A stretch of 64,000 nt of DNA from Arthrobacter sp. Bz4 (GTDB lineage: Bacteria; Actinomycetota; Actinomycetes; Actinomycetales; Micrococcaceae), in the NCBI RefSeq assembly GCF_003075455.1, contig NZ_QDAE01000009.1:1-64000 (forward strand). Reading direction: 5' to 3'. Below the pieces are notes generated by a model. That model saw only the letters and a list, made by a program, of their open reading frames with translations. It searched no databases and had not been told where the DNA came from. A program made the position numbers and the translations under genes. Positions 51,541 through 62,149 of the stretch are shown one piece after another (position 1 is the first letter of the stretch; every line of letters begins with the position of its first letter).

Positions 51541-54500
51541 CTAAAGGCGAAACGGTGGCCGTAACCGGAGCTGGATGCTTTGCTCCGCACTCCGGCCATC
51601 GGGGCCGGTCAGCCGGACGGTGATCCGATCCGGTGCCGCCGGGCTGTACACCCAGTACTCCCCCGCCCGTGAGGGATACCGCCCCACCTGGGTCCGGGTG
51701 GAGGCCGCCTCGGGGGTCGCCACCGGCACCTCCTCAAGATTGCCGTCAATGACCACCGGCCTGGGTGGCCGCCCCGGGAAAGGCCGCCCCGGGAAAGGCC
51801 CACTGGCACGGGGCCGCAGGGTCACCCGCAACCGGAACGAGCCAGCAGGAGTGGCCGCAGGAGGCGTACTGCTCTGCCACTCAGCGAGCACCCCGGTCAG
51901 GGGCTGCCGACGAGCGAGGGCGAGTCCGTTGATTTCCGGCGCCGGCAGCAGCGATCCGGGTGGGACTGTCACGGTTTCGGTGCTGGTCCGGCCCAGCGGA
52001 TCGGTGATGATCACCCTCACCTCGATGATGTCCCCGGGGTCGGCCCGGCGGAGGAGTGCCCGATAGCCGGTCGGCGCTCCGGCGAGGGCTTCAATTCGCC
52101 AGAATCCCGATCCGGTGGTGGGTTCCACCTCGGTCACCAACCCGAGTTGTTCGGAGGAGTCGATTAACGCGGCCCCGAGGGGGACGGTTGCGGCGACGGA
52201 AATCCGGTGGGTGCCCAGCGGGCTGCGCACGGCCGGGGCCCGGCTGGTCCACCTGACCAGCACCTCCCCGGGACCGCCCGCACCGGGTGCGACGGTCAGC
52301 GCAGAGAGGTCGGGGGGCCCTGCTGGGGGTACCACCACCCAGGCGGCTGAACTCGCATCCGAGCGGTCGCCGAGGATGCCGCGGGAGGGGTCGTCGCTGC
52401 TCCAGACGGTGGCCCGGTACCAGAGCCGTTTCCAGGAACCGTCAGGAACGTCGAACCCGTCCAGGGTCCGGATCCCGCCGGGCGCCGGGCCCGCACCGAT
52501 GGTCCACCCGGGTGTGCTTGCGGACACGGCTGCCACGGGCGGTCCCATGGTGCCCAGTGATGCGACAGCCTCGTCCACCCGGACCCGGTGCAGTTCCACC
52601 CGGGTCACCGCTGCGCCGTCGCGCGCACCGACCAGCACCCGGGCCTTATAAACACCCGCATCCTCCACCGCATGGAGCTCAAGGGTCGGCGGGGCAGGCT
52701 GGGACCGGCGCGGAACCGCGTAGGCAAACCATTGGTCAGCCGCGTCAGGCCCGGACGGCCAGGGCGCCTCGACCTGGCCGGCGCTGACTCCGATGATCAC
52801 AAAGGCGTGAATGTCGGTGGTACCGCGGGGCAGCGTTACATCGGCGGATGTCCCGGAGACCAGGGTGGCGTTGCGGCGGGTGAAGGCGCGTCTGGAGGGA
52901 TCGTTGTTGAAGACGTCCTTCATCGCCTCGAGCCGTTGGGACAGCGGGGCCTCCAGATCAGCCGGTGGCAACCCGGCGTTCTGCAGTAACTTGGTCTCGG
53001 TGGATTCGTAGATGGCGTAGCCGGCCACCGACCCAGCGGACGACCAGGACAGGCGTGCATGAGATTCCCCGTTTGCGTCGGGGAGGCTACCCAGGGCCAC
53101 CGTTGGCAGGGTGTTCATGACAACTGCTGGTGGGCGTGGATCCGAGGTCGTCACGACGCTGGGATCCGCTGGCCAGGCGCCCCACCGTTGAGGCAGGACC
53201 CGTTCCCTCCCGATAGCCCACAGCGCCAACCCGATATGGCCCGATGCATCAAAGTCCAGGCTGAAACCGGGAATCCGCAGACGGTATCGCCGTTCCCGCT
53301 CCCCCTGCCCCGCGGGGCCCATCTCCACCACCGCGTCGCCCGCAAGATTCAGGCCCGTCAGGGTCATCCCCCCGCCGGAGCCTTCATCGCCAACGAAGAC
53401 GACGTCGGCAAACGCGCCTCCCCCACCGAGGCTGCGCTGCAGCCCACCTGGCACCGAGGTATCGGGGGGTTGCGAACCGTGAAGCGGTGCGGCGAAGAGT
53501 CTGCCAGCAAACCGGATGGCCAGCGGCCCCCTGGCGGACCAGTCCCACAGGAACTCGACCTCCAGTTGCGCGGCAACGAGGCTCCCCGCCGTCGGGCTGC
53601 CCACCGCGGTCAGGGCGGCACTGACAATCCTGACGCCGTCGACGGCCGGTTGATCAACGGTGACTCCGGCGGTGCGCCATTTGCTCCACAGCCCGTAGAG
53701 GTCCTGATGTGCGACAGAGTAGCTCGGAGAGATACTTCCCGGATCGGTCGGGATGGGAATTTCGCGGTCGACCGCCGAAATCCTGTGCGGGGCCGGGTCC
53801 CCCTCCACCGGGGCGTCATTGATGATGCCGGGCAGCCAGCCGCCGCCCACCCGAGGGGGCAGCAAGGACGACGCCGCGAGGTCCCCCGGGCGGGACACCC
53901 GGGCGAAAGCGAAGCTGCGTGGACGAGCCAACGGGGTTGCCAGCGGCCGCTCCCACCCGGTGCGGAGGGACGTCCGCCACGGCGCGTCCCTGTCCATCGG
54001 GCGCAGATAGCCCATGGTCCGCACCAAAACCCCGGCCGGCGCCAGCGGTGCAATCCCGGGCTGCGGCGACGGGACCACCGCCGCGTAGGTGCGTTCTGCC
54101 GATTGCCCGTCAAGACCTTTCTCGTAGGTGGCTGTGACCAGGTAGTCGTAGCCGCTGCGCTCGCCGTGATCGTCCTTGGGCAGCTCATCGGGCCCGTACG
54201 CTGTGCCCATGCCGAGGGTGAGCGCGGCATAGGGATCCGCTCCGGCCGCCAGCAGCGTCATGCCCCACGGTGAGACCAGCGAGGTGGTGGGACTGCCGGG
54301 CGCCGAGCCGCCACTGGAGTTGGCCGGTGGCGGCATGGTGATGGCAATGGTCCGCCCAGCGTGCTCCTGCGGCGGGTGGGAGTTCGAGATGACCGCCAGG
54401 TGGTGCACCAGCGAGGCGTTGGCGTCATCGATGACCGCCGTAAAATCCGGTTCCTGCCAGCCGGGCGCGGTGATTCCTGCCGTGAGGTGCGGGTCCCAGC

Positions 54501-55185
54501 CCGACGACGGCGCGCCGCGTTCCAGCCGCTGTCCGGCAGCCGTGACGGGGTCGGTGAGTGCCGGTGCAGGGCCAGAGGCGTCCACCAGCATGCCCTGCGG
54601 GTGGCTGCCGTAGGCGGTCCCCGCCCACCGTGCACTGTCAACGGGCAGACCCACATGCTCCAGTTCCTCCCACCCCATTCCCTCGTCATACTGGGCCAGG
54701 TCGGTGCCCAGAATCGACTCGATCACAATGCCGGGGTCCACCAGGAGGCCGTCCATCGCCCCGGCACCAATCTGGACGGCTCCGGCCCCCGGCTCGAAAC
54801 GCCTGACAGCCACGGCGCCTGAGGTGGTGGGCCAGCCGGCAAAAGCGTAGATGTAGCCGGCAGCGCCGCTGAGGAACAGGTGGGCGGTCACCAGCCGGGT
54901 CCCGTGCCAGGTCACCAGGGTACGCCCGCCCAACGAGGGGATGACGACCGCACGGAAGGTGAAGTCGGTGCGTTCGGCGCGCATGGCCGGCCGGCGCCAG
55001 ACGCTGAACGGCCGGCTGGGTATGCCGATCTCCTGGTTGGTCAGCCACCGTAGCTGCACGTTCGCCGGCCTGACCTTGAGGGTGCGTGAATACTCTTTCA
55101 ATCCGCCAAGGGTGCGGGCGTGAACCGCCCAATTGATGGCGACGCCCTCGGCCTGGAACCGGCGGGAATTGAATACGTAGCTCAT
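51541..55185 (-). CDS. large beta-rich protein of unknown function, partner of the giant gene
   Basis: A 1214-residue protein that I cannot assign. It has no signal peptide, no transmembrane helices and almost no Cys. The N-terminus (MSYVFNSRRFQAEGVAINWA, then RTLGGLKEYSRTLKVRPANV) recalls phage-tail or baseplate-like beta proteins only loosely. The middle (about 330-420) contains repeated actinobacterial-style proline-rich turns. From about 690 onward there are at least three fibronectin-III/Ig-like stretches, e.g. ARLSWSSAGSVAGYAIYEST. A GPFPGRPFPGRPPRP repeat sits near 1140. The start is 2 bases after the giant gene stop, so the pair is translationally coupled. Confidence 0.75.
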   Translation of the reverse strand: MSYVFNSRRFQAEGVAINWAVHARTLGGLKEYSRTLKVRPANVQLRWLTNQEIGIPSRPFSVWRRPAMRAERTDFTFRAVVIPSLGGRTLVTWHGTRLVTAHLFLSGAAGYIYAFAGWPTTSGAVAVRRFEPGAGAVQIGAGAMDGLLVDPGIVIESILGTDLAQYDEGMGWEELEHVGLPVDSARWAGTAYGSHPQGMLVDASGPAPALTDPVTAAGQRLERGAPSSGWDPHLTAGITAPGWQEPDFTAVIDDANASLVHHLAVISNSHPPQEHAGRTIAITMPPPANSSGGSAPGSPTTSLVSPWGMTLLAAGADPYAALTLGMGTAYGPDELPKDDHGERSGYDYLVTATYEKGLDGQSAERTYAAVVPSPQPGIAPLAPAGVLVRTMGYLRPMDRDAPWRTSLRTGWERPLATPLARPRSFAFARVSRPGDLAASSLLPPRVGGGWLPGIINDAPVEGDPAPHRISAVDREIPIPTDPGSISPSYSVAHQDLYGLWSKWRTAGVTVDQPAVDGVRIVSAALTAVGSPTAGSLVAAQLEVEFLWDWSARGPLAIRFAGRLFAAPLHGSQPPDTSVPGGLQRSLGGGGAFADVVFVGDEGSGGGMTLTGLNLAGDAVVEMGPAGQGERERRYRLRIPGFSLDFDASGHIGLALWAIGRERVLPQRWGAWPADPSVVTTSDPRPPAVVMNTLPTVALGSLPDANGESHARLSWSSAGSVAGYAIYESTETKLLQNAGLPPADLEAPLSQRLEAMKDVFNNDPSRRAFTRRNATLVSGTSADVTLPRGTTDIHAFVIIGVSAGQVEAPWPSGPDAADQWFAYAVPRRSQPAPPTLELHAVEDAGVYKARVLVGARDGAAVTRVELHRVRVDEAVASLGTMGPPVAAVSASTPGWTIGAGPAPGGIRTLDGFDVPDGSWKRLWYRATVWSSDDPSRGILGDRSDASSAAWVVVPPAGPPDLSALTVAPGAGGPGEVLVRWTSRAPAVRSPLGTHRISVAATVPLGAALIDSSEQLGLVTEVEPTTGSGFWRIEALAGAPTGYRALLRRADPGDIIEVRVIITDPLGRTSTETVTVPPGSLLPAPEINGLALARRQPLTGVLAEWQSSTPPAATPAGSFRLRVTLRPRASGPFPGRPFPGRPPRPVVIDGNLEEVPVATPEAASTRTQVGRYPSRAGEYWVYSPAAPDRITVRLTGPDGRSAEQSIQLRLRPPFRL

Positions 55186-55187
55186 GA

Positions 55188-58100
55188 TCAGTCAGTCTCT
55201 TCCCACGGCGCGGAGGTGAGTTGGAGGTCGGCGACGGTAAACGCACTATCTGCGGCCGCCGGGCCGTCGAGATACGTCTCGGGTTGCGCGAGACGGGCCA
55301 GGACCAGGGTCAGGCGCTTGCCGCGGGACCCTGGTTTGAGGGAGACCAGGGCACGCTGGCCGCCCGGCCCCATCACCATCCGGTCCACGACTGCGCCAGC
55401 GCTGGGCCTCTCAGCGAGCTCCAGCCACCTGCGCTGCACCATCTTGTAGCGGCGGTTGCCGGCTACCGCCGAATCCACCTCTTCGACTGCCACCCCACGA
55501 CTACGCCACATTGGCTCTGACGCATCGATGAGGACAGCTGCCGGTTGGGGGACCGAGCCCGGCGCCGCAGTTTCCCAGAACACCACAATCTGACCGGATT
55601 TAGGCACGCCCATTGGCTCCAGCCCCGCCGCAGTGAGCGCCTGGTCAAGTTCGGCGCCTTCCGGAGGGCGCGCCGCGAAGGATGCGGCAACGGTCTGCAG
55701 CGCCGCCGGCGCAGCGTACCGGTGCACAATCTTGGCGTCGGCGAACGACCCACTGAACTCTTCGACCGAGGCGTAGGCGCCGGTGCTGAAGGAGCGGCGC
55801 CAGATCACCTCACCCTGCGCGCCGTCGGGCGCCGTCAAATCGGCGGTTTCCACATCCATGATGTAGTCGGTGTAGCTCTCAAGTTCCACTCCCACGGTTT
55901 CCACCGAGTGCCTGACGCGTTCCTCATCCACGGGGATGCAACTGCCGGTCAGTACCCCAGCCAGCGCCTGCTCCCAGGGTGATAGGACCGCCGCCGCGAC
56001 GAGCTCCGGGTTGTTGCCTCCGGCTGCGGTCCAGGGCCGCAACACCAACGGGTGGACGAAGCCGGGTTTCGCCTGGATGGGGCGGAAGGCTGAGGACCGC
56101 AACCGCACCTGAAGCCGTTTGCCGTAGGCCGCGAACATCCTGACCACGTTGGTGGTGCCGAAAATGATCTTGATGGGTTCCCCGGTGGGAAAGTGCTGCT
56201 CACCCTCCTGCGGGGTGCTGCCGAGGATCCAGGGGTCGAGTCGCCGGGGTGGCAGGTTGTCGGTTCTGAAGAAGAACTGCTGCGGGGAACTGGCGACGTC
56301 GACGGCCGTTCCATCGGTCCCGTCGGGAAGGACGGGTCGAGCCTGCACGGAGTACCCGACTGTTGCGCGGTAGACGGTGTCGGGGTGGAGCAGCGCGTGG
56401 TCGTCCGTGTCGCCGCCGAGGACATTGGCGACCGCGGCCTGGCGGGAGTCGCGTTCGGTCTGGTCCCAGTCGAAGCGCAGGAACTCGGCGGTCCGGGTCA
56501 GTTCGGTGCCGGCCAGATAGTAGCCGCGGGCGTCGAGGCGCTCGTTGATTGAATCCTCGGGTGGCATCCCAATCTGAAGGTGGTCAGCCTTCACGCCGCC
56601 CTTAACCTCAACGACGACGGGGAAGTACCCCAGCCGGGTCATGGCCGTGGCTTGCTGGCTGAGCAGGAACGTGTCCGCACCCCAGGGTCCGGCAGCGTCG
56701 GTCCAGCGGGCGGGGAGAGTGGTGACGGCGGGGGTGACAACGTCCCTGGAAAGTTCATTTTCCTCGGCGTCAAAGGCACAGACCACGAGTCCGCCCTCCA
56801 GCAACTCTCTGCGCACCAGCAGATACAACACCACCGCGGTGAAGGGGCCGGTGCGCAGCACCACCGCATTATCGAGTGGCCCCGGCTGGAATCCCGCGGC
56901 TTTCCAGCCCTCGTGGATGTCTTGTTTCCGCTCTTCGTCACCGTGGTGCATGGGGTCACGGGCGTCGTAGACGGGTGCAGCGAGCGCCCGGCTGGAACAT
57001 TTGGCGCGGCCCTGCTTGATCGGAACACCATCCAGCAGTTGCGCCCGGTGGACGGTGAGGTCGGGGTCCGGGTTGGTGACCACATCGCCCCAGTCGACGC
57101 GAGGCAACACCGTTTCCTCTGGCTCCTTGCCTCCGAGGGCCGCGAGGACCGGGTTGTTGGCCTCGACTGATCCGTCCAGTTCGGGACGACGGGTGTCCGC
57201 CCGGTTGGCTTCCCTGACCTCCGGGCAGGTCACGGCGAGCCCCTCAACCTGGGCGGGGACGACGGCGAGGAGACTGTCGACCGAGAAGTCGCCCGAGCGC
57301 CAGCGCTCGGTCACGGTCAGGTGGTTGTCCGGCGGTATCGACCGGTGGCTTCCCGGCGGGTCCGGCCAGGGCAGCCCGGTAAGGTGCCAGCCGGCCTCGG
57401 ATGGCCCCAGGGGTTCGCCGAGGAAAGTGAACAGGACCGACGTCGGCGGGGCAATGGGATCACAGATGGTTCCCCAGCTGTCGGTGACCGTCTCCTCGAG
57501 CGAGTACCCGGTTTCGACTGCCTTGGGGGTTCCCTCCGGGAGCCAGCTCAGGAGCGCCAGTTGGGCCGACAGGGCCGTGTCGCCACTTTTTTGCTCCCAC
57601 CAGGTAGCCGGTGTCGATCCGTCGGTGAATCCCCCCGGCAGCACACCGCCGTCGGGGCCCACCGGGTCGAGCTCCACTGAGGTCAGGGTGAATTTATAGG
57701 ACGCGGATCCTTTCTTGACCCATCCCCCGGGAGCGACTCCGGTGCTGCCGGCCAGCACCTCGCCCTTGAACCGAACTGCCGGATCGGCGACCGGGGGCAG
57801 GTTCATCATGAGTACCGGAATGGCGTCCAGGGGAACACCATTCTCGGGGTCCACCGCGGCCAGGGATTCGGCGGCGTCGGCCAGGCCGCTGTCGATCGGT
57901 TTGTCGACGCCTGAGCCCTGGACTAGCGCCGGTGACCTGCCCACCAACTTGAGGATTTCGACCAGCGGCGGCGGGGGCGGGGTCTGGATCGCCGTCTCGC
58001 CAAGTTCAAAAGTGACGCAGCCCTGCACGGAGAAGAACAGGAACTTCACCCGTCCGCAGATCTCGCCGCTGATGCGTGACACCTTGGCCGGGTTGCCGCC

Positions 58101-61100
58101 GATCATCTTCTCCCCCACGAAGACGTCCAGCTTGGCCCAGGCGCTCACCTCAATGATGAAGAGGTGAAGGCTGCCCCGGACATACAGGATCCCGGCGAGG
58201 CAGAACGGGTCGAACCCCACCACCGCATCAAAGCCGGCAGCGAGTTCGGCGTAGAGGCCGCTACTGCGGTCCCCCCATTCAAACGAGACGTGGAGGCCGG
58301 TACCGATGGAGAATCCGTAGACTTCGGGCAGGTTGTCCAGGGCAAGCCCGTTGCCGGAGAGCATCAGGTAGCCCGTGCCGTCGAACACCTCAAGGATGTT
58401 GGCGTGGATGGGGCTGCGCTGCCGGCCGAGGTACAGGTGCCAGTCCGCCACATCGGTGAAGTTGAAGAAAGCTTCGACCGGGATATGGAGTTCCAGCAGC
58501 GGTGAGATGTCGAAGTCAATGGAAATGCCGATGGTGAGAGTCCCGCGCCCCATGTCGAGGTCGATGACGGCCAGGAAGGTGCCTTCGGCGTTGCCGCCCA
58601 GGTTCGGCATCACGGCCAGCAGCTTCGCCTTCATGATCAGCAGTAGCCGCGGGCCGGGCAGCTCCAGCATGATCAGGCCCTTGAGGTTGAAGATGACGCT
58701 GCTGCCCATGGTGCCGAGGATTGCGCCAACACCAAAGGCCCAGGTGTTGACCTCGGGCTTCCAGAACTCCAGGTTCAAGGGGTTTCCGCCGGTGGCCCGG
58801 AGCCAGGCCAGTGCGGGTGCCATGTTGGAGGTGTCGATGTCGGTCAGGTCGCGTGCGTAGTTCATGGCGAACAATCCCATGAAACCGTAGATCCCCAGGC
58901 CGCTCTGCCCCAGCGGGATGGCGACCGGGAACTCGACCTCAAGTGCGACGATCACGCCGGTGGCCGGTCCGCCGTCCTCCTCGCTGATGTTCGCCACCCC
59001 CACCCCTGCGGCGATCCGCACCGACACGGGAACGATGGTCAGGTCCAGCTGCCCCTTTATCTCGCTGTCGTTCATTTCCAGGTAGCCTTTGCCAGCGATG
59101 GCACCCGGAATGTCGATGGAGGCGCCGAAAGCGGTGATCGCGAAACTGAACGGTTCGAAGGCAACCCGCAGCCGGGCCCGGTCGATGCTGACGACGCCAA
59201 GGTCGACGGCGAAACCCAGGTCAATCTCGAAGATGAGGGGATTGTTGCGTGCCACCCGTGCGCCGAGTACCTGCAGGAGCTCGCCGAGCGGTTCGGCAAT
59301 CTTCAGCCCGCCGGGACCTGCCACCTCGATGGAATAGCCCTTCGCTGCGTCAAACACCGGCCGGAACTGGAACGGCTGACCGGCAGCGCCGTCCCCGAGC
59401 CTGATGCCCACCGCCTTGTAGCGTACCGAGAGCGGGGCCTCACGGGTGATCTCGACGAGACCAGCGATGTCCATCGAGATGGCCGCCTCGACGTCGAAGA
59501 GCACCACCAGTTCATTGGCGCCGGGGACAGCGTTGAGCAGGATCTCGCCGCCGTGCCACACCACCCTTTCGGTCTTAACAATCTCCGAGGAAGCAATGCC
59601 CGCCGGGATGGCGAGCATCGCGGCGGTGACCCCCATCTGGACGATGGCCCCCTCGTTGGCGACCGCCCCTGCCGTCTCGGAGAGCAGCGGCATCAGGACC
59701 ACTGTGGCGCCGAAGAAGTCCAGCCCGAACTCCGGTGCCTGCAGCGCCTCTCCCGGCCGGATCCCCCACAGGTAGAGTCCGTCGGTGTCCTGGGGGTGGG
59801 CCCCATACTGGGCGGTCATCCTCACGGAGCCAACAGCCTCGTCGATTTCGATCAGGAACCGGATTCTGATGATGCCGTCGGCGGGGTTGCGGCCGATGGC
59901 CCGGGCCGCGCTGAGCTCGCTCCCCGGGGTCATCTGCCCGGCTAGCCGGTTCTCGGCGGCGGTCTGGATATCGAACTCTCCGAACACTTCGCAGGAGACG
60001 AAAGTGTTCCTGACGATTCTGACGACTGTGCCCAGTTTCCGGAACCAGGAAGGCGGGTTGGTGCGGGTGCCGGGGTCGGCGTCGGGGGTGGTCAGATCGG
60101 TGCCGGGGCCGGTGGCTTCCTCCCGCCACAGTTCCGCCGTGACCAGCGTGTCCCCGGTGCTCACTGGCGGCCAGGTCGCTTCCGCTTTCCAGAAGGTCCG
60201 CCGGACGTCGAGGGCTGGCCCCTGCCCCGTCCACCCCGACATGTCGGCGGCAGCGGTGATCACCGGGTTCCTGCCGGTGAGTGCGGGCTCCTGGCAGAGC
60301 CGTTCGATGCGAAGTTGGAGGGCATCGGCGCGGCGCCGGGCAAGCCGTTCGTTGTATTGGCGGACCGTGGGTGTGTCGGTGCCCTCGAAACTGGCGTACC
60401 CGCTGATGGAGATGGGGTGCCCGGCGGGGAGCGCCGCGAGGAGCGGGCGGAGCGTGTCGTCGGAGTCGGTGCCCTGCGTCCAGGGGGTGGCGGCACCCGC
60501 ATTGGGTGCCGGGGCTGACCGGCTTGGCGCCGCGGATTCGGCTCCCGGGTCCGGTGTGTCAAAGCGGTAATAGGCGGTGGCAGCCCCCACGGTGGTGGTC
60601 CCGGGAAGCCTGGCCTGTACCGAGAAGCGTTGGCCCGGGCCGACGTTGACGGACAGCGTAGCGCCTGTCGTTGGCGCACCGCCGTCGACCCGCCATTCGG
60701 TGGTGGCCGCTGTTGCCGTGTCGACGTCGAGAGTGAGGACAACCGTCGTCGTCGTGCCCGCGACGGTTTCAGAGTCGACGCGCAGGCGCGGCGAGGCGGC
60801 CGGGACGGTACCTGTGGTGGTGCTGACGGTGCGAAGCTGGGCGTTGGTACCACCGCCCGGGACCGTGGCGAGGGCCGACGTCGTCAGGGTGAGGGTGGCG
60901 GTCTGTGGAGTGCCGCTGGTGTCCCTGACGGTGATGACGATGTTTCGGCTCGCGTCGGTGGAGAGATCGATGTCGGTGACCCTGCCGGCCGGCTGTGCGA
61001 CGCCGTCGACGGTGATGGTGAAGGTGTAGGGGGCCAACCCGCCTTCAACGTCGGCGACCATCCGGGTGAGAGGGGGCAGGGTGACGGTGCGGGTTCCGCC

Positions 61101-62000
61101 GGTGCCGACCGGCGAGTAGCAGCGCCCGGCCGCATCGTAGAAGCGCGCCCCGAGTTTGAGGGCTCCTGCGCCCTGGTAGGCGACGGTCAGGTCGAAGTCC
61201 CCGGACACCCCGGAGGTCGCGCCGAAGCCGATGAGGAGGTTTTTGGCACCGGCGTCCACGCAGAGGTCGCGGGCGCCGTTCGGAGCCACGAAGAGCCGGA
61301 TTTCTGGGAGATAAAGGCCCTGCCATTCGGCGCCAAGGTTGAGCAGGTCGAGGACGTCGGGTGGGGTGGCGTCACCGGAGAGATCGAGCATGCCGGAGCG
61401 GAATCCGAAGCCGACCACGTCGGTGGACCCGATGAACGCGAACGGAGGCTGCATGGTGACGAAGGAGGCAATGGCGGGATCGTCGGTGCCGGTGTCGCCG
61501 AGGCCCAGGAACCTGGCGTCGGTGCCGCCGTCGTCGCCGAAGATCTGGAAGTCGACGTCCGGCAGGGTGAACGTGAAGTCAGGATTCTGCGGATCCGGGA
61601 CCAGCTCCCCCGGGCTGGGATGCTTGGCTCCGCGCAGGAACGGGGCTTTCAACACAATATTGCTCAGGCTCAGGTCGAGGGTGAAGTCCTCCCCGCCCAG
61701 TCCCGGGACCTGCAGTTCGAAGGTGAGGGTGGTGTTGCGGACGTCAATCCACGAGTTTTCACCGAAGGCGTCCGCTCCACCTGCAGTCGCGGCGGGGGTC
61801 CAGACCAGACGTTTGCTGACGACGTCGACGCCCAGTTTCAGCCCGGCAGCGAAGGACACCGAGCCGGTGACGGTCACACCGCCGGGGTTCGAGGGGGTTT
61901 GCTGATCGTCGACGGTGAACTCGTCGAGGGCTTCCCCGAAATCCCCGAGCTCCGTGCCATCACCGAGCAGGGGTGTGAGTGTATCCAGTAGTGAAGGCAT
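55188..62000 (-). CDS. giant beta-rich protein, DUF6603-like, OmpA-like insert
   Basis: A 2270-residue protein without a signal peptide. Residues 1-290 are a beta-rich head (MPSLLDTLTPLLGDGTELGD...). About 300-480 holds two Ig-like repeats. About 510-560 is an OmpA-like segment (ISISGYASFEGTDTPTVRQY, then NERLARRRADALQLRIERL). About 780-1335 is a long stretch of alternating hydrophobic strands (PLGQSGLGIYGFMGLFAMNY, then GRGTLTIGISIDFDISPLLE), which I read as DUF6603-like from memory. A PPPPP linker near 1340 leads to a beta-rich C-terminus of about 930 residues. GAGGAG precedes the ATG. The function is unknown; see findings. Confidence 0.75.
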   Translation of the reverse strand: MPSLLDTLTPLLGDGTELGDFGEALDEFTVDDQQTPSNPGGVTVTGSVSFAAGLKLGVDVVSKRLVWTPAATAGGADAFGENSWIDVRNTTLTFELQVPGLGGEDFTLDLSLSNIVLKAPFLRGAKHPSPGELVPDPQNPDFTFTLPDVDFQIFGDDGGTDARFLGLGDTGTDDPAIASFVTMQPPFAFIGSTDVVGFGFRSGMLDLSGDATPPDVLDLLNLGAEWQGLYLPEIRLFVAPNGARDLCVDAGAKNLLIGFGATSGVSGDFDLTVAYQGAGALKLGARFYDAAGRCYSPVGTGGTRTVTLPPLTRMVADVEGGLAPYTFTITVDGVAQPAGRVTDIDLSTDASRNIVITVRDTSGTPQTATLTLTTSALATVPGGGTNAQLRTVSTTTGTVPAASPRLRVDSETVAGTTTTVVLTLDVDTATAATTEWRVDGGAPTTGATLSVNVGPGQRFSVQARLPGTTTVGAATAYYRFDTPDPGAESAAPSRSAPAPNAGAATPWTQGTDSDDTLRPLLAALPAGHPISISGYASFEGTDTPTVRQYNERLARRRADALQLRIERLCQEPALTGRNPVITAAADMSGWTGQGPALDVRRTFWKAEATWPPVSTGDTLVTAELWREEATGPGTDLTTPDADPGTRTNPPSWFRKLGTVVRIVRNTFVSCEVFGEFDIQTAAENRLAGQMTPGSELSAARAIGRNPADGIIRIRFLIEIDEAVGSVRMTAQYGAHPQDTDGLYLWGIRPGEALQAPEFGLDFFGATVVLMPLLSETAGAVANEGAIVQMGVTAAMLAIPAGIASSEIVKTERVVWHGGEILLNAVPGANELVVLFDVEAAISMDIAGLVEITREAPLSVRYKAVGIRLGDGAAGQPFQFRPVFDAAKGYSIEVAGPGGLKIAEPLGELLQVLGARVARNNPLIFEIDLGFAVDLGVVSIDRARLRVAFEPFSFAITAFGASIDIPGAIAGKGYLEMNDSEIKGQLDLTIVPVSVRIAAGVGVANISEEDGGPATGVIVALEVEFPVAIPLGQSGLGIYGFMGLFAMNYARDLTDIDTSNMAPALAWLRATGGNPLNLEFWKPEVNTWAFGVGAILGTMGSSVIFNLKGLIMLELPGPRLLLIMKAKLLAVMPNLGGNAEGTFLAVIDLDMGRGTLTIGISIDFDISPLLELHIPVEAFFNFTDVADWHLYLGRQRSPIHANILEVFDGTGYLMLSGNGLALDNLPEVYGFSIGTGLHVSFEWGDRSSGLYAELAAGFDAVVGFDPFCLAGILYVRGSLHLFIIEVSAWAKLDVFVGEKMIGGNPAKVSRISGEICGRVKFLFFSVQGCVTFELGETAIQTPPPPPLVEILKLVGRSPALVQGSGVDKPIDSGLADAAESLAAVDPENGVPLDAIPVLMMNLPPVADPAVRFKGEVLAGSTGVAPGGWVKKGSASYKFTLTSVELDPVGPDGGVLPGGFTDGSTPATWWEQKSGDTALSAQLALLSWLPEGTPKAVETGYSLEETVTDSWGTICDPIAPPTSVLFTFLGEPLGPSEAGWHLTGLPWPDPPGSHRSIPPDNHLTVTERWRSGDFSVDSLLAVVPAQVEGLAVTCPEVREANRADTRRPELDGSVEANNPVLAALGGKEPEETVLPRVDWGDVVTNPDPDLTVHRAQLLDGVPIKQGRAKCSSRALAAPVYDARDPMHHGDEERKQDIHEGWKAAGFQPGPLDNAVVLRTGPFTAVVLYLLVRRELLEGGLVVCAFDAEENELSRDVVTPAVTTLPARWTDAAGPWGADTFLLSQQATAMTRLGYFPVVVEVKGGVKADHLQIGMPPEDSINERLDARGYYLAGTELTRTAEFLRFDWDQTERDSRQAAVANVLGGDTDDHALLHPDTVYRATVGYSVQARPVLPDGTDGTAVDVASSPQQFFFRTDNLPPRRLDPWILGSTPQEGEQHFPTGEPIKIIFGTTNVVRMFAAYGKRLQVRLRSSAFRPIQAKPGFVHPLVLRPWTAAGGNNPELVAAAVLSPWEQALAGVLTGSCIPVDEERVRHSVETVGVELESYTDYIMDVETADLTAPDGAQGEVIWRRSFSTGAYASVEEFSGSFADAKIVHRYAAPAALQTVAASFAARPPEGAELDQALTAAGLEPMGVPKSGQIVVFWETAAPGSVPQPAAVLIDASEPMWRSRGVAVEEVDSAVAGNRRYKMVQRRWLELAERPSAGAVVDRMVMGPGGQRALVSLKPGSRGKRLTLVLARLAQPETYLDGPAAADSAFTVADLQLTSAPWEETD

Positions 62001-62149
62001 TGCCCAGCTCCTCAGCGGATATCCAGCACGTCAGAATGGAACGATTATGGACCCGCAGTAGAAACTCGACAACCAAAACTCTTGGTTATTCAAAACGTAT
62101 GTGTTAATTTATTCGATTGTATTTTTGGGCCGGCCCTTTGGGGTCGGGT
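62001..62149. promoter_or_regulatory. AT-rich promoter region of the giant-protein operon
   Basis: This short gap is strikingly AT-rich for the window (62065-62130). It contains an inverted repeat AACCAA-N5-TTGGTT (62071-62087), a likely operator or promoter spacer element for the minus-strand giant gene. The upstream DAO-like gene ends at its right border, so this is the only promoter region for the two giant genes. Confidence 0.55.

Follow-up and report, generated by a model that had tools for sequence, protein, structure and literature searches.

We describe here a pair of giant genes, A and B, in Arthrobacter sp. Bz4, and the larger cassette from which the pair appears to derive. Both genes lie in the window analysed, the first 64,000 nucleotides of contig NZ_QDAE01000009.1 of a 3.41 Mb assembly; the nearest named relatives by A and B homology are also Arthrobacter. 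In most related loci B is followed by a third gene, C, and comparison of the three sequence families shows computationally that A, B and C share one history, a history that crosses phyla. Tentatively, we favor a reading in which the Arthrobacter pair is a C-less version of a mobile A-B-C cassette whose products may form one signal-peptide-less assembly that handles lipid or membrane.

A conserved cassette and its two-gene form in Arthrobacter

Gene A (55188..62000, minus strand) encodes 2270 residues from an ATG start and is a distant DUF6603 protein; gene B (51541..55185, minus strand) encodes 1214 residues, also from an ATG, and matches no known family. The two are tightly coupled, as a sequence-only reading of this DNA had claimed: the TGA of A is followed by two bases and then by the ATG of B. 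At E<=1e-3 we find 298 homologues of A, 120 of them listed, and 71 of B, in searches that scored only those candidates with the most words in common with the query; among the matches listed, most homologues of either protein cover at least 95% of the query. Relative to Arthrobacter sp. 260, the ratio of nonsynonymous to synonymous substitution (dN/dS) is 0.079 for A and 0.110 for B, and 0.077 and 0.140 for two flanking genes. Both genes are thus under strong purifying selection, and given these ratios and the near full-length alignments, they are not chance reading frames. Because their dN/dS values resemble those of the flanking genes, the two-gene form is itself maintained, and 10 kb of coding sequence kept under strong selection implies a real benefit to the carrier.

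A scan of genome contigs identified at least 27 related loci, and a sample of 27 is the basis of the counts of listed loci given here. Gene order was mapped with tblastn, while neighboring reading frames were called mechanically, with wrong picks in some loci of high GC. In 23 of the 27, A and B are immediate neighbors on the same strand; three of the others (L012, L016 and L025) break off within A or just past it, at the end of the contig, and the last (L029) is decayed. Every listed locus that holds both genes therefore has them adjacent and in the same order (23/23), a result that bears out the proposal that homologues of the two travel together. The sequence-only reading had also asked what third gene might accompany them. 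We find C, of about 1030-1120 residues, directly after B in 21 of the 23 listed A-B loci, one C being cut by a contig end. There is no C next to B in the window, in Arthrobacter sp. 260 (L005) or in Cellulomonas (L030). The earlier remark that no helper genes adjoin the pair thus stands within the window, but not for these relatives, where the accompanying gene is of phospholipase D (PLD) ancestry. Two copies are visibly damaged: in a Dehalococcoidia bin (L029, 9986-16344) A is split, B is gone and a C remnant is left, and in Methylobacillus glycogenes (L031, 9561-20501) the cassette is split or frameshifted.

The shared history of the three genes is seen in their distance matrices, which correlate at 0.959 for A and B (23 rows), 0.977 for A and C and 0.959 for B and C (19 rows each), with p 0.0005 in each case. 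The cassette occurs in Acidobacteriota, Pseudomonadota, Bacillota, Cyanobacteriota and Actinomycetota, and outside the genus A is 36-54% identical to the window copy. A starred set of six rows in a tree of 23 A sequences unites the window copy and that of Arthrobacter sp. 260 with sequences from three Acidobacteriota and one Pseudomonas. Four changes are needed on this tree to account for the four actinobacterial rows labelled; this is not proof of transfer, and L030 sits on a long branch. The Rhizobium tropici plasmid pRtrCIAT899c carries the full A-B-C set, and on Paracoccus pAMI4 A is accompanied by a B-like gene. In addition, IS240-type transposase genes (PF13610) stand upstream of the cassette in L009 (8543-9067) and L017 (9381-9728), which is consistent with mobility.

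Within the genus, B is present in 3 of 35 genomes, and in 3 of 57 genomes overall; the genus presence counts rest on B. In all three carriers B lies upstream of a 160-residue gene, presumably KhtT-like, and of a second gene that we take to encode an antiporter. B is separated from the KhtT-like gene by 43 bp in the window, against about 1 kb in the other two carriers; in Arthrobacter sp. 260 the corresponding ~0.93 kb of unassigned DNA (L005, 20446-21374) hold no credible remnant of C. At the KhtT-like site, A and B are both missing from all 27 other loci examined in the genus. There, the oxidoreductase gene that stands upstream of A in the window precedes the KhtT-like gene, with a gap of 77-272 bp in 14 loci and further off in 13. 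Four further genomes matched without loci and one had no match, and the upstream flank of G009 lay outside the comparison. Thus, the A-B pair is present or absent at one and the same chromosomal site within the genus. The GC content is host-like, at 0.63-0.71 across 46-64 kb, and no tRNA gene was found in 45-64 kb. Overall, Arthrobacter probably acquired the pair by transfer. The other four members of the starred set carry C, in one case cut by a contig end, and loss of C in Arthrobacter is therefore the simplest reading. Downstream of B, in the window and in L005, a search for a C remnant gave nothing below E 0.26, and a genome-wide search with a C profile gave no match in three Arthrobacter genomes (the window's own, G007 and G009). 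The same profile found full-length C in the Streptomyces, Streptosporangiales and Paenibacillus carriers, and in Cellulomonas one partial match (3.7e-11, profile positions 766-928, the PLD part).

Clustering of the mechanically called reading frames yields no neighbor family besides A, B and C that is common to more than three listed loci, and the nine neighbors scanned with Pfam include one PAAR protein; sheath, tube and baseplate proteins are not among them. That PAAR gene (PF05488, 1.8e-20) lies with a gene for a Tle1-like phospholipase effector (PF09994, 8.9e-25) just upstream of A in Massilia sp. Root133 (L020, 7675-9632). In Nitrospira (L012, 787-2238), on a contig that stops before B, an LCAT-like lipid acyltransferase gene (PF02450, 7.5e-14) is near A.

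The third gene and its phospholipase D ancestry

Five whole C proteins have no Pfam family above cut-off, with neither PLD nor a toxin domain among them, and for the C-terminal piece alone the Pfam PLD family appears in 1 of 13 members at 0.073, below threshold. Because Pfam gave no PLD match above threshold, a profile-profile comparison was needed. In hhalign, with E-values that hold for single comparisons, a profile of the final ~200 residues of C, built from 13 rows, matches a profile of 19 PLD half-domains with a probability of 98.5, an E-value of 3.8e-15 and a score of 96, whereas none of 27 control segments taken from A, B and the upstream part of C exceeds 22.2 and reversed C scores 16.4. 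C also matches a Mycetohabitans gene that stands beside a DUF6603-related giant and is itself identified as PLD (PF13091, 1e-16), both by tblastn (2e-7 and 2e-6) and by hhalign (92.4, 5e-7). At the level of sequence profiles, then, descent of the C-terminal domain of C from the phospholipase D superfamily is shown computationally.

None of the 22 C sequences that extend to the relevant site has the catalytic HxKxxxxD motif; the 23rd (L013) is cut before it. The motif is present in the Mycetohabitans PLD and in 19 of 19 PLD controls, the latter by construction, as the controls are the 19 of 30 loci chosen by the motif. Where the motif would be, a 15-row alignment of C reads mostly xRTTxVIVDD. 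A first, degenerate HKD half was also noticed in C, by eye only, and was dropped; windows of upstream C gave no match to PLD second halves. Against the PDB, the C profile retrieves only chains named OspA, at best 0.0042. The C protein of L007 contains an insertion (residues 75-161) that resembles a phage tail fibre chain (E 3.8e-7), and this insertion recurs in 6 of 15 aligned C rows.

A PLD-derived partner raises the alternative that the cassette serves antagonism, encoding a released toxin complex of three proteins that is swapped between species, with a membrane-active C carried by A and B. B turns up only sporadically, in 3 of 57 genomes, and the A tree mixes phyla; both speak for this idea, and the PAAR and Tle1-like genes beside the Massilia copy are suggestive. 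So is the arrangement on two Mycetohabitans plasmids (L085, 8150-21171; L086, 5252-17796), where a hypothetical protein of 1322 residues, a PLD with a single HxKxxxxD and the DUF6603-related giant are encoded in a row, with IS elements around them; for the 1322-residue protein itself, hhalign gives no clear link to B (8.9%). Against a toxin complex stand the missing catalytic motif in 22 of 22 C sequences, the selection acting on an Arthrobacter form without C, and the lack of any Pfam toxin domain in A, B or the five C proteins. Nor do the listed loci show a recurrent partner besides C that could serve as an immunity gene. We regard this alternative as quite unlikely.

Architecture of A and B

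The sequence-only reading had loosely recognized DUF6603 in A, and a Pfam search agrees, if weakly: PF20248 matches residues 920-1150 with an E-value of 1.2e-8 and 34.5 bits against a cut-off of 27. This best stretch covers positions 20-247 of a 502-position profile, and although a second stretch also passed, the match is not full-length. In a sample of 296 genomes from the phylum, nine have a DUF6603 match; A gives the weakest of them, some 80 orders of magnitude behind the rest (E 1.6e-7 versus 4.7e-89 to 3.2e-144 for the other eight), and A is therefore a remote branch of the family. Its reading frame is longer than those of seven of the other eight. The stronger DUF6603 genes of the phylum (L041-L048) mostly adjoin giant genes that form families of their own, and the three of these neighbor families compared by hhalign are not detectably related to B or C. 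Neither A nor B has a match in NCBIfam, and PHROGs returned nothing below 0.08 for either, so that across Pfam, NCBIfam and PHROGs neither gene is assigned to a characterized family. Of the two outcomes that the sequence-only reading had named as fatal to it, a known family for both proteins and homologues far apart in most genomes, neither was obtained.

Ahead of the DUF6603 region lies an OmpA-C-like segment (residues 500-625; 60126..60503, minus strand) with the motif GxAS...NxxLxxRR. A single-sequence search of A against the PDB had given only a nanobody, at 0.061, and a profile of whole A gave weak OmpA-type matches, at best 0.016. A profile of the segment alone (21 rows) matches 24 distinct PDB sequences at E<=0.1, the best at 9.1e-5. 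Of these, 17 are named YfiB, Pal or OmpA-family, and the remainder include porin F, class 4 protein and MotS, which we take to carry OmpA-type domains as well. Pfam recognizes OmpA in 15 of the 21 members at E<=1, at best 1.1e-3; the window's own segment, at 15.0 bits, is below the cut-off of 27.2. The OmpA-like segment suggested from the sequence thus gains profile support. In A. baumannii OmpA, according to PMC6572160, an Asp together with an Arg binds diaminopimelate. In an ungapped alignment this Asp is replaced by Ser in 21 of 21 rows of the A segment while the Arg is kept, but the placement is ambiguous. HMMER opens a gap at this position in the alignments with 6jfw and 5u1h, two of the three chains shown, and 6u83, the top match, itself reads GYAS, so the Ser-for-Asp replacement is no firm argument against peptidoglycan binding.

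The central region of A is predicted to be a long amphipathic beta-meander. The AlphaFold2 model, of residues 627-1404, has a mean pLDDT of 69.8 and a pTM of 0.41, and its antiparallel meander (about residues 893-1335 by VIA-align ranges; 57996..59324, minus strand) contains the DUF6603 match (58551-59243). The predicted strands alternate in hydropathy, with a mean alternation of 2.82 versus 1.43 when shuffled. The best PDB fold matches to the modelled region are usher, ApoB and porin-like chains at a query TM-score of at most 0.18, and the listed fold rows contain no whole-fold match; OrfX2, considered as a fold relative, ranks only 22nd, with a probability of 0.12, and was rejected. The modelled region may thus form the elongated beta-groove proposed earlier.

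B, modelled without its last 24 residues, is predicted to be a rod of tandem FN3/Ig-like beta-sandwich domains, a string that spans about residues 379-1079 (51949..54051, minus strand). The FN3-like repeats once seen in its sequence therefore reappear in the predicted structure, although Pfam gives no FN3 match to the sequence and a B profile has no match of any kind in the PDB. Foldseek against viral structures returns many generic FN3 proteins, phage FN3 and tip-attachment proteins among them; the top PDB matches are animal proteins, and we therefore consider the viral matches generic.

These matches bear on a second alternative, a phage-tail-like or injection apparatus to which A, B and C would contribute the fibre, spike or hub, the remaining genes being located elsewhere. 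Together with the tail-fibre-like insertion in C, the PAAR and Tle1-like genes upstream of the Massilia copy and the lack of a general signal peptide, the phage proteins among the fold matches of B lend this idea some appeal. Against it, no neighbor family beyond A, B and C occurs in more than three listed loci, none of the nine neighbors scanned with Pfam is a sheath, tube or baseplate protein, A has no match in 50,697 phage records, and no viral contig was confirmed. With the FN3 similarity generic as well, we find a tail origin rather doubtful.

The sequence-only reading saw no transmembrane helices in A or B, and we likewise find no transmembrane-like stretch, the best 19-residue Kyte-Doolittle means being 1.87 and 1.45, respectively. 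A crude hydropathy check detects no general signal peptide in the A, B or C sets: a value of 1.8 is reached by 11 of 102 A and 3 of 56 B sequences and by 0 of 15 for C, and control peptides range from 1.91 to 2.42. Both results count against a third alternative, a cell-surface or wall structure with the OmpA-like domain of A as its anchor and B as a projecting adhesive rod. The OmpA-like segment and the FN3/Ig rod are what one would look for in such a structure, but the diaminopimelate-binding Asp (PMC6572160) reads Ser throughout if the ambiguous alignment is left ungapped, and we judge a surface role quite improbable.

Upstream of A is a gap of 149 bp. It holds a candidate sigma-70-like promoter (62044..62072, minus strand; TTGTCG-17-CATAAT), a consensus match only, with 9 of 12 positions, and the one such site in 401 bases scanned, where 0.1 would be expected. 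A ribosome-binding-like motif, GAGGAG, read from the sequence (62008..62013, minus strand), precedes the ATG of A.

A possible lipid-handling assembly and known systems

The preferred reading, lipid or membrane handling by a single assembly, is inferred from the amphipathic sheet predicted for A and the PLD ancestry of C. The A sheet would cover a hydrophobic cargo or a membrane surface, in lipid binding or shuttling, and B would hold or space that sheet. C would act as a docking subunit in which the PLD fold was kept for binding lipid headgroups or proteins after catalysis was lost, and the Arthrobacter carriers would retain the A-B core without it. A bolder version, which we consider speculative and rather unlikely, is that A-B-C is an undescribed mobile machine, a giant lipid carrier lacking a signal peptide, whose porin- or ApoB-like sheet is mounted on an FN3 rod and whose docking subunit is a catalytically dead PLD, evolved independently of the AsmA and VPS13 bridges and working in both Gram-positive and Gram-negative cells, with Arthrobacter holding the minimal two-protein core.

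DUF6603 (PF20248), though catalogued, is not mentioned in the literature searched, which took in few subscription papers; that literature contains no description of the cassette or its spread, of its dead-PLD partner or of the Arthrobacter form without C. Regardless of the specific function, a conserved three-gene set of ~14 kb is found in distant phyla, and the natural two-gene form in Arthrobacter, set against relatives that are empty at the same site, makes its role testable by deletion. If the lipid reading is true, the cassette would represent a new bacterial way of moving or holding lipids; if it is false, partners for the study of this DUF6603 branch have still been named.

Several known systems invite comparison. 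The AsmA, TamB and VPS13 bridge-like lipid-transfer proteins have a long beta-groove, and the meander predicted for A recalls that idea; A has no such Pfam match, however, and none of these proteins is among the listed fold rows. The long meandering sheet also resembles, in fold only, outer-membrane barrels, ushers and ApoB, but with a query TM-score no higher than 0.18 and no general signal peptide; Arthrobacter, moreover, has no outer membrane. With the OmpA C-terminal domain family A shares profile similarity and the NxxLxxRR motif, although its segment is internal to a giant protein and has Ser for Asp in the ungapped reading. For C, the closest parallel may be the FAM83 pseudo-PLDs, in which, according to PMC6008594, catalysis was lost and the fold kept. 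C likewise aligns to a PLD half-domain from which the catalytic residues are gone; it differs from FAM83 and the PLD superfamily at large in being a bacterial protein of ~1030-1120 residues, in an operon with A and B, and in falling below Pfam thresholds. A itself is to be compared with DUF6603. The match is far weaker than in other members and partial, and the partners of A are not detectably related to the neighbor families tested; nonetheless, A passes the family cut-off, and like A, other DUF6603 genes adjoin giant genes without an assigned family.
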